From Pseudophaeobacter arcticus DSM 23566 (GTDB lineage: Bacteria; Pseudomonadota; Alphaproteobacteria; Rhodobacterales; Rhodobacteraceae): DNA of 64,000 bases. The translations under genes were made by a program, and so were the position numbers. The first letter of the stretch is position 1, and each line of letters starts with the position of its first letter. Below are positions 56,189 through 58,788 of this stretch, piece after piece. The DNA lies in contig NZ_KI421507.1 in NCBI RefSeq assembly GCF_000473205.1, forward strand, positions 2,027,945 through 2,091,944, in the 5' to 3' direction. The notes under the pieces were generated by a model. The model was given only the letters and a program-made list of their open reading frames with translations. It was not told the DNA's origin and ran no database searches.

Positions 56189-57202
56189 TTAGGCGAGCAA
56201 CCGCTGCCTGGCTCGTGGTTTCACCACCTGCCCCCGCAGCAGGAACAGGCCGGACCCAATCACGATAAAGCCGCCGATCCAGGTGCCTTGGCTCGGCATT
56301 TCGCCAAAGACCCATGCGCCGATTGTCAGCATCCAGACAAATTGCAAATTCATCAAAGGTGTCACCACATAGGCCGGCAGCAGGCGCAGGGCCGCCACCG
56401 CCAGCCACCGGGCGGCAAAAAGCAACCCGGCATATGCCAAGGCCCAGGCCAGATCCGCCAGTGGCATCGGCTGCCAAACAACTGGCAATAGCGGAACCAT
56501 TGCAAGGCAGAGTAGCAGATTGGGATAAAAGACCTGCGGCAGCAGGTTCGTATCATGGCGACTGATATAGCGCGCCATGACCATAGAAAATGTCCCCCAG
56601 GTCGCCCCCACAAGCGCCAGGACGTGCCCCCCCGAGATAGATGAGACACCGCTGGGAAACAAAAACAGCACGCCAACAAATCCCATCCCCAGGGCAATCC
56701 AGGCGCCAAAACTGATCCGCTCTTTCAGGATCAGCCCGGACATAACCCCTGCCAGCAGCGGCATCAGACCAATAAACAGAAAAACCTGCGCAAAAGGCAG
56801 CAGGCGAAACGCATAGAAAAAGCAAATAGCCCCCAGCAGGGCCGCCAGACTTCGCAGCCCCATGGCACGCGGGCAAGCCGTTCGCCAGGGCAGGTATTTG
56901 GCAAAGACCCCAGAGGGTGGCTTCTGCCCCCCCGGCCCCGTCCTTTGCCCCCCCGGTCCTGTCCTTTGCCCCAAGGGCTGATGAATTGACAGCTGGGGTA
57001 AGGCGCGCTTGTCCTCTCGCGACATGCACAGCCAGTTGACCAGTATCGACAGGACGGCAACCATGCCTCCCGCGAGCACATAGATCTGGGCCGCCTCATA
57101 GCCCCCTGACAAGAGTTTGATGATCCCATCCGCAGACGAGATAAGTCCCGTGTACGCCACGATCATCAGCCCCCCCAGAACTGGCGTTGAAAGCCCCCTC
57201 AT
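56189..57202 (-). CDS. EamA/DMT transporter in the repeat-peptide operon
   Basis: 337 residues with about ten membrane helices in two EamA repeats (GLISSADGIIKLLSGGYEAAQIYVLAGG starts the first). Between helices 2 and 3 a long hydrophilic insertion contains the tandem octamer GQRTGPGG twice, with a third partial copy (GQKPPSG), absent from usual family members. Its start overlaps the stop of the helical-protein gene by 4 bases, so it is translationally coupled. By position it could export a product of the repeat-peptide operon, but DMT substrates are usually small metabolites. Confidence 0.85.
   Translation of the reverse strand: MRGLSTPVLGGLMIVAYTGLISSADGIIKLLSGGYEAAQIYVLAGGMVAVLSILVNWLCMSREDKRALPQLSIHQPLGQRTGPGGQRTGPGGQKPPSGVFAKYLPWRTACPRAMGLRSLAALLGAICFFYAFRLLPFAQVFLFIGLMPLLAGVMSGLILKERISFGAWIALGMGFVGVLFLFPSGVSSISGGHVLALVGATWGTFSMVMARYISRHDTNLLPQVFYPNLLLCLAMVPLLPVVWQPMPLADLAWALAYAGLLFAARWLAVAALRLLPAYVVTPLMNLQFVWMLTIGAWVFGEMPSQGTWIGGFIVIGSGLFLLRGQVVKPRARQRLLA
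56926..56973. repeat. 24-base in-frame tandem repeat in the DMT transporter gene
   Basis: Two copies of a unit containing GTCCTTTGCCCC plus a C-rich stretch, with a third partial copy. They encode GQRTGPGG octamers in a predicted cytoplasmic loop. Confidence 0.8.
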
Positions 57203-58368
57203 CCGTTGTTTACCCGCGCAATTGGCCCCTCCGTCGTGCCGCTGCGGGCAAAGGCCTCAAAAAAGGTCTCAAAGCCGACAGAGCTGCGCTCTGCCGCACA
57301 GAGCAGTTCGTAGGCGCTTTCACTCAAGCCTGCAGAAATCAAGGGGCGCAAGGCCTGCCAGTCTCCTGCTCGGCTTCCGGCCTGAAACACGGCCTGCGAC
57401 AGGTGATGCAAGACCCCCTGTTCGGCAGGGCGTTGGAAGCGCAGGGCTGCTGACGGAATTCTGTCGTAAAAACAGGACCCCGCGTATAGGGCCTGATGCC
57501 AGCTGCTCACCAGGAACATGTGATAGTCGTCCCGGTGCAGCGGCGGTGCAGCCGCCCTGCCCGCCTCCATCAAGGTAAATCCTTGATGGTGCCGCGCCAG
57601 CCAGTCCTCCCAGATTGCCGAGGGCGTTTCGCCACAATAGCGCAGCGAAATGCAGATCTCGGACAGAAGGTCGGCATCCTGGTCCAGAAAGGCGAGCAGC
57701 CCGACATGGGTGAGACTTTGGACTGCTGCCGGTGACAGCCCCGGTGGCCGGCGTCCATAGTCGCTCAGATAGAATACAATATGTGTGAGCTCATAGGCGG
57801 CCTTGCGATTGGGCACCGCAAACTGGGCGCTCTCATCGACAAAGGCATGCAGCCTCTCGTCCAGTCCTGGAAAATCCGCAACCAGCCCGCGGCGCGCCAA
57901 CAGCCGACGGGCCTCAGCGCGTTGCAGGTCGGACAACTCATGGCTTGGCAGATCCTGCTCTATCACCCACTGCGCCAGGGCTTCGCCCTTCCCTGCCGAG
58001 TCAGCTGAACCTGAGCCAACACCTGAGCGAACAAGGCCAAGATCTTCCAGGTCCATACAGATGGACAAAACAAACCGGTAGTACTGTCGGAAAAAACAAA
58101 GATGGCGGTCCGCACCAGCATAAAAGGCGCGCAGCGGAGCAAGGGCCGCAGGGGCAATCCCGTCCAGATCACGCCCCCCAGCCGCCACACCTGCCCCAGA
58201 GGCCTCTTGGGTGCATTCAAGGACATTCAGCAGTTCAGCGTTTTCTTTCAACCAATAGACATCTTCCTGGGCGTGGCGATGACAGGATACCGCCTCTATC
58301 AGGTGCGACAGGGTGTCGACACGGCGCAGCGGCCAGTTGCTTTTGGGAAACCTCAGTATCTGCGCCAT
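57199..58368 (-). CDS. Helical protein of unknown function (probably DUF6902) beside a repeat peptide
   Basis: 389 residues, predicted mostly helical, with no signal peptide or membrane segment. The clearest motif is YELTHIVFYLSDYG (192-205, H196). Other conserved-looking spots are HLCFFRQYYRFVLSICMDLEDLG (about 89-111), DQDADLLSEICISLRYC (229-245) and RDDYHMFLVSSWHQAL (279-294). The pattern of repeated helical pairs with His, Asp and Tyr suggests an enzyme or peptide-binding scaffold. I believe it matches a roseobacter family catalogued as DUF6902, from memory only. It lies between the repeat-peptide gene (108 bases upstream) and the transporter (4-base overlap). Confidence 0.78.
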   Translation of the reverse strand: MAQILRFPKSNWPLRRVDTLSHLIEAVSCHRHAQEDVYWLKENAELLNVLECTQEASGAGVAAGGRDLDGIAPAALAPLRAFYAGADRHLCFFRQYYRFVLSICMDLEDLGLVRSGVGSGSADSAGKGEALAQWVIEQDLPSHELSDLQRAEARRLLARRGLVADFPGLDERLHAFVDESAQFAVPNRKAAYELTHIVFYLSDYGRRPPGLSPAAVQSLTHVGLLAFLDQDADLLSEICISLRYCGETPSAIWEDWLARHHQGFTLMEAGRAAAPPLHRDDYHMFLVSSWHQALYAGSCFYDRIPSAALRFQRPAEQGVLHHLSQAVFQAGSRAGDWQALRPLISAGLSESAYELLCAAERSSVGFETFFEAFARSGTTEGPIARVNNG

Positions 58369-58435
58369 TGTCGCGTCTTCCTATTCCTCGCCTCATCCAG
58401 GCCTGGGCGCCCCGCAGGCAACCCGATACTGGCAC

Positions 58436-58464
58436 TGGCGCGCCAACCAACTCGGGGCGCGCCA
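58436..58464 (-). repeat. Inverted repeat between repeat-peptide gene and the next ORF
   Basis: TGGCGCGCC and GGCGCGCCA form a perfect 9-base stem with an 11-base loop in the 108-base gap. No T-run follows on the minus strand, so it is more likely an mRNA-stabilising or attenuating structure than a full terminator. Confidence 0.6.
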
Positions 58465-58476
58465 TGTTTTTATCCC

Positions 58477-58788
58477 TTAGCTGCCCGACGAGAACAGCCC
58501 AGACAGATCACCACGCACCACAGTTGCCCCTGCTGTAGGCGCAGACCCGGAGGAGAAAAGCTCCACCAATGCGCCAGAGCCCTGATCGCCCCGCGCCTGA
58601 GGTGCAGAGCCAGAAGAGAACAGAGCCGTGTTCTCGCCACTCCAGCAGGTGCTCATTTCTGGTGCGGAGCCGGAGGAGAAAAGCTCCGCCCCGTCGCCGC
58701 AGAACAGGCTGCAGCCTTTGGAATTCGACTCAACCTTAGCCTGATCTGAAGAAAAAGTCGCCATGTGAGTTTTGTGCAAAGCAGTCAT
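58477..58788 (-). CDS. Repeat peptide with four LFSSGSAP motifs (probably DUF6749)
   Basis: 103 residues from the ATG at 58788, with GGAGG 5 bases upstream. After a ~25-residue lead (MTALHKTHMATFSSDQAKVE) the octamer LFSSGSAP occurs at 36-43, 56-63 and 78-85, and the protein ends in a truncated copy LFSSGS at 98-103. A degenerate copy (SLFCGDG) lies at 27-33. Spacers of 12-14 residues vary in sequence; three cysteines (26, 30, 48) lie outside the octamers. There is no hydrophobic signal peptide. This looks like a multi-core precursor or a multivalent binding peptide. I believe such proteins are catalogued as DUF6749 (memory, unverified). It is the first gene of a three-gene operon. Confidence 0.82.
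   Translation of the reverse strand: MTALHKTHMATFSSDQAKVESNSKGCSLFCGDGAELFSSGSAPEMSTCWSGENTALFSSGSAPQARGDQGSGALVELFSSGSAPTAGATVVRGDLSGLFSSGS

Follow-up and report, generated by a model that had tools for sequence, protein, structure and literature searches.

What does a gene for a repeat peptide do beside a gene for a helical protein and a gene for a transporter? The question is raised by a small cassette in the window, i.e. the whole 64,000-nucleotide stretch of DNA that was analysed, which lies within a 4.2-Mb contig of a 5.05-Mb genome. Probably, the cassette encodes a RiPP-like pathway in which a DUF6902 protein modifies each core of a tandem multi-core precursor, possibly by epimerisation, and an EamA protein exports the products. 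The components of this answer differ in strength. It is very probable from the sequences that the DUF6902 protein and the precursor are enzyme and substrate, while the chances that the EamA protein exports the peptides are about even. Epimerisation as the reaction is a tentative proposal drawn from analogy. Judged by its genes, this is an uncharacterised kind of RiPP-like pathway rather than an established RiPP. A gene-encoded precursor adjoins a candidate modifying enzyme and is inherited together with it, as in RiPP loci.

The cassette comprises three minus-strand open reading frames, which were found exactly where the earlier note had placed them (Table 1). The second and third genes overlap by 4 bases, as reported there, and the common bases are ATGA. 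The tight order described for all three applies to these two closely joined genes, whereas the first and second are separated by 108 bases. The start codon of the 103-residue frame is plausible: GGAGG lies just 5′ of it and the N-terminus MTALHK is like the starts of relatives, 49 of the 79 precursors fitting the loose pattern M..A[LQRMYV].K. Relatives of the proteins are named from genera such as Pseudophaeobacter, Leisingera and Ruegeria, names which we read as placing the window in a marine bacterium of the roseobacter group.

Table 1. Features of the cassette, in positions of the window, and the basis on which each was assigned
Feature	Position	Strand	Basis
Precursor-like peptide gene, multi-core, 103 aa	58477..58788	-	ORF calls; relatives 5′ of DUF6902 in 79/81 loci
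DUF6902 protein, 389 aa, candidate core-modifying enzyme, also DUF6895 match	57199..58368	-	ORF, Pfam, conserved residues
EamA (DMT) transporter, 337 aa, putative exporter	56189..57202	-	ORF, Pfam, neighbourhood counts
Core 1, FSSGS, residues 37-41	58666..58680	-	ORF translation, core parsing
Core 2, FSSGS, residues 57-61	58606..58620	-	ORF translation, core parsing
Core 3, FSSGS, residues 78-82	58543..58557	-	ORF translation, core parsing
Core 4, FSSGS, residues 99-103, extreme C-terminus	58480..58494	-	ORF translation, core parsing
Candidate active-site residues of the DUF6902 protein: H196, Y200, D233, E237, D280, H283

According to Pfam, the cassette is flanked on its 5′ side by a divergent Exo_endo_phos gene (xthA-like) and on its 3′ side by two genes, a convergent Fe-S_biosyn gene and one for an HD phosphohydrolase; the families matched beside it are Exo_endo_phos, Fe-S_biosyn, HD and FAD_binding_3. 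The operon contains no peptidase or other maturation gene, and no radical SAM gene is among the scanned flanking genes of the window. Two GGCGCGCC octamers lie in the gap between the precursor and DUF6902 genes (58369-58476), which folds no better than its shuffles (z -0.8). A hairpin in this gap was considered as a means of balancing expression and set aside as weak, given this value in the window and a z below -2 in 15 of 61 folded gaps (median -0.56). The sole promoter-like site is on the opposite strand and such sites are no more frequent than shuffles yield.

The peptide had been described as a series of LFSSGSAP motifs. This octamer is not the repeat unit: the real repeat measures about 20 residues and only FSSGS is constant. 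The dipeptide AP follows cores 1-3 only and the protein terminates on the fourth core. The spacers of the window precursor are nearly unrelated (identity 0.09) versus four identical cores; a count by near-matches gives 0.84 for the cores, as its rule lets in a fifth, imperfect copy. The window precursor matches no Pfam or NCBIfam family and scans of its relatives revealed no convincing one. A T6SS_Vgr match of the L101 precursor just over the cut-off (24.4 versus 22.4 bits, E 3e-5), in which no single stretch passes, was rejected as a probable repeat artefact. The name DUF6749, a UniRef label of precursor P0131, was set aside, as Pfam finds no match to DUF6749. Within the genus of the window, the peptide was matched in 10 of 12 genomes including the window's own; one of the misses is an assembly of 86% completeness.

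Across the family, precursors contain 2-20 repeats, mostly spaced by 20-21 residues. In each repeat, a variable spacer of about seven residues precedes G-[D/E]-[A/G]-[V/T]-x-[M/L/A]; the five-residue core F-x-[S/T]-x-x comes next, mostly followed by [A/G]P. In 62 loci with at least four repeats (469 repeats, anchored on G.....[FY] only), the repeats within a precursor show an identity of 0.95-0.96 at core positions +1 to +4, 0.50-0.69 at -5 to -1 and 0.32-0.37 at +7 to +9. Another count took near-matches to the commonest core as its anchors, which favours the core; it gave 0.27-0.35 for the spacer before the glycine, and the core exceeded the spacer in 64 of 64 loci. Between loci the cores differ: 37 core types occur in 78 loci, among them FSSGS, FTSWS, FTSGL, FITSC and FTNWC, and they require at least 51 changes on a DUF6902 tree in which many forks are poorly supported. 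This tree covers 78 loci (L111, L128 and L120 were left out) and nine core labels were set by eye. The core parser miscounted some spacer pieces such as FDGEG, so that the list of 36 majority cores has a few errors. In 38 of 75 parsed precursors, that of the window among them, the commonest core forms the C-terminal end. Positions which are uniform within a precursor yet free to vary between species would point to a defined product rather than to docking sites.

The second gene belongs to Pfam DUF6902 (PF21843; 416.6 bits against a cut-off of 27, E 9e-125) and also to DUF6895 (PF21836; 76.6 bits against a cut-off of 23.8, E 2.8e-21). Through the latter match, the second protein, called unknown in the earlier note, belongs to a family that is not entirely new: judging from the title of a study, a member of DUF6895 is an epimerase of lasso peptides (Shi et al., ACS Catal. 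2026, 16, 1757; cited in PMC13352647). The two families have in common the motifs H, D, D-x-D-x3-E and YH, of which H, D and D-x-D-x3-E are invariant in 23 DUF6895 proteins; hhalign of the two family alignments reached a probability of only 89.5 (E 2e-6). In sequence comparisons of DUF6902 proteins, H196, H283, D233, E237 and D280 are near-invariant.

The DUF6902 protein is predicted to be mainly helical. Its model found no match in the PDB with Foldseek at E 0.001, and a sequence search of solved structures returned none at E < 0.05. Cyclases and lyases appear among the structural rows, at a Z that is attainable by chance with helical models. The VIA rows listed contain no HEXXH, calcineurin-like or other RiPP enzyme fold. 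The only further enzyme family for this protein in Pfam and NCBIfam at E ≤ 1 is GHMP_kinases_N, in a weak row that stays under its cut-off. Plasmids yielded no DUF6902 match and PADLOC no match.

Evidence for a functional link comes from the joint occurrence of the peptide and the DUF6902 protein. In a sample of 295 Rhodobacteraceae genomes, one per genus, DUF6902 is present in 82. A precursor profile of 62 positions, built from 26 precursors and used at a threshold of E 1e-5, found the peptide in 74 genomes, all within these 82 and in none of the 213 others (Fisher 5e-61, a value which is strong but not exact since the genomes are related by descent). Eight of the 82 gave no profile match, and five of these have deviating or few cores (G041, G099, G264, G283, G293). 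The remaining ones are a contig-edge fragment (G139) and two genomes without a precursor (G288 and G039, loci L111 and L128).

The neighbourhoods agree with the profile. We read 81 loci of the 82 genomes, 80 fetched and the window, after two contig-edge fragments (G181:C73 and G139:C17) were dropped. A peptide gene lies 5′ of DUF6902 in 79 of them, a count which takes in four deviating precursors judged by eye (L112, L114, L125, L127) as well as several that are cut or partly masked. By an automated count, the precursor ends within 150 bases of the start of the DUF6902 profile in 74 of the 79. Longer distances of 270, 345 and 494 bases separate it from DUF6902 in L113, L058 and L124, and the precursor frames of L099 and L122, which fall outside the automated 74, stop 0 and 65 bases ahead of the open frame of DUF6902. 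Two extra family genomes from a phylum survey (L145, L146) also have a repeat peptide 5′ of DUF6902, with the core motif FSTSSF; the DUF6902 identity of L145 was established by a Pfam run.

The two precursor-less loci are informative about the enzyme. H196, Y200 and D233 are replaced only in L111 and L128 (2 of 81), exactly the loci that lack a precursor; L128 is additionally devoid of E237 and H283, both of which L111 retains. The coincidence was noticed post hoc, and its chance for two given loci of 81 is 1 in 3240. That these three residues are kept only with the peptide is the best single argument that they act on it. The DUF6902 copies of L111 and L128 are themselves candidates for decayed or repurposed enzymes.

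The third gene is a member of the EamA/DMT transporters (61.2 bits against a cut-off of 28.2, E 2e-16, in two stretches). Of the 81 loci, 62 have an EamA gene directly 3′ of DUF6902; the other 19, one of which (L120) is interrupted by a contig end, lack it at this slot. Because of these 19 loci, export by EamA is not essential, and the precursor and DUF6902 are shown to be the constant pair of the cassette. The EamA protein of the window contains a low-complexity insert, GQRTGPGGQRTGPGGQ, at 56910-56990, and its 337 residues compare with 295-316 as called in 28 of 40 clustered relatives.

Could the three genes be neighbours without a joint function, passed on together only because they sit in a stable chromosomal slot bounded by the Exo_endo_phos and Fe-S_biosyn genes? 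The slot is indeed syntenic, with a divergent Exo_endo_phos gene upstream in 75 of 81 loci. However, it is also kept where the cassette is absent. From the matches listed, we chose 40 of the 213 DUF6902-free genomes by high xthA similarity and completeness, and read a stretch of up to 6 kb past xthA in each. A Fe-S_biosyn gene was present in 36 of the 40 stretches, sometimes adjoining xthA, and EamA in none, although the stretch of L179 reaches only 1.9 kb. EamA is thus present or absent along with the cassette. Together with the lack of the precursor in all 213 genomes, this largely refutes passive co-inheritance, which we hold to be very improbable. The condition that each gene usually occurs alone, which would have spoken against a unit, was looked for among the 295 genomes and not found. 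The co-occurrence (74 within 82, 0 of 213) and the slot counts (62 of 81, 0 of 40) support the view that the precursor belongs with the helical protein and the transporter in a single unit.

A further question is whether DUF6895 genes have similar partners elsewhere. Five of them lie directly 3′ of a short peptide gene, in a Rhizobium (L142), two other Pseudomonadota (L143, L144), a Flavobacteriaceae member (L149) and an Acidimicrobiales member (L150). These short genes come from reading open frames and, where scanned, have no Pfam or NCBIfam match over the cut-off. In a family genome without DUF6902 (G242), a DUF6895 match falls in a 228-codon frame with a similar-looking short frame just 5′ of it (L147). 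Such genes are possibly further precursor-enzyme pairs. Some of the peptides at these six loci contain GPW[FY] or GWW. In two Streptomyces loci (L153, L157), Pfam-checked LANC_like and ABC transporter genes are located within 2 kb upstream of DUF6895; a third (L158) likewise has such genes nearby. No short peptide gene was seen at the DUF6895 loci L151, L152 and L154-L156, where open reading frame calling is poor in the GC-rich DNA.

Several known systems resemble the cassette in part. FxSxx-COOH radical-SAM cyclophane RiPPs occur in Actinomycetota and have a C-terminal pentamer F-x-S-x-x similar to the core described here. They differ in that the flanks of the window are free of radical SAM genes, and NCBIfam was negative on the window precursor, P0131 and three precursor pieces. 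The DUF6895 lasso epimerase of Shi et al., as far as its title tells, is akin to the DUF6902 protein of the window, which matches the DUF6895 model (2.8e-21) and has the H, D, D-x-D-x3-E and YH motifs in common with that family. In contrast to a lasso locus, the window cassette has no lasso flanking genes, and its precursor is a tandem multi-core one. A lasso B peptidase and C cyclase beside the precursor are absent from the window according to Pfam; the neighbour clusters of other loci were read by eye. MslH, the epimerase of the lasso peptide MS-271, is described with two His/Asp pairs, a calcineurin-like fold and Ca(II) (PMC10406935). DUF6902 likewise has two conserved histidines and several acids but is predicted to be mainly helical. 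The microviridin ligase AMdnC treats several cores of one precursor, AMdnA (PMC5934393), as proposed for DUF6902; however, AMdnA has three cores versus up to 20 here, and AMdnC is an ATP-grasp ligase. A description of the cassette was not found among the open-licence papers listed for its DUF families, repeat and multi-core precursors, lasso-peptide and other peptide epimerases, FxSxx peptides and Roseobacter RiPPs.

We propose the following sequence of events. DUF6902 would bind the motif preceding each core. The core would then be modified by acid/base chemistry of a cluster of His, Asp, Glu and Tyr residues on a fold that is predicted to be all-helical and may resemble a toroid. The likeliest single reaction would be Cα epimerisation (L to D) of one core residue, because a member of DUF6895 is titled a lasso-peptide epimerase. 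Housekeeping proteases may separate the repeats, a step proposed because the operon has no peptidase, and the short peptides may be exported through the EamA protein.

Two other readings of the pair deserve consideration. DUF6902 might modify the cores differently, by metal- or acid/base-dependent cyclisation, hydroxylation, dehydration or backbone cleavage at F-x-S/T-x-x. The conserved F and S/T of the core, the two conserved histidines and several Asp/Glu of DUF6902 and the invariance of H, D and D-x-D-x3-E across 23 DUF6895 proteins would suit such chemistry, as would the chance-level cyclase and lyase rows. The closest reported activity, by the title of Shi et al., is nevertheless an epimerase, and the family scans add no other enzyme besides the sub-cut-off GHMP_kinases_N row; we regard these alternatives as rather unlikely. 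Still less likely is that the repeats are multivalent docking sites and the precursor a scaffold or sponge for DUF6902 from which no product is released. A motif G-[DE]-x-[VT]-x accompanies every core and could be a binding site, and the operon is without a protease. However, core positions +1, +3 and +4 hardly vary among the repeats of a precursor, differ between species and are stricter than the flanking motif, a pattern that suits a product sequence better. Moreover, the loss of the conserved polar residues in the two loci without a precursor favours an enzyme that would act on the peptide over mere docking.

The core idea of the earlier note, a precursor served by a processing protein and an exporter, stands on much firmer ground, with its repeat unit, enzyme family and transporter role corrected. 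Returning to core modification by DUF6902, a bolder version can be considered with some reservation: a new RiPP class, present in more than a quarter of the sampled genera of one marine family, in which a stand-alone DUF6902 epimerises or otherwise modifies all the species-specific pentapeptide cores of a tandem precursor and the DMT transporter exports very short peptides with D-residues. On this speculative version, the operon would dispense with radical SAM, ATP-grasp, YcaO and lanthionine machinery, and the peptides might be species-specific signals. The unassigned Pfam family DUF6902 now has a candidate substrate, present in dozens of genera; its candidate catalytic residues are named and the minimal two-gene system is testable in E. 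coli. Should DUF6902 prove to epimerise peptides, it would offer a compact means of introducing D-residues into ribosomal peptides. For the bacteria themselves, cores that are uniform inside a precursor and change between species are as expected of species-specific small peptides.
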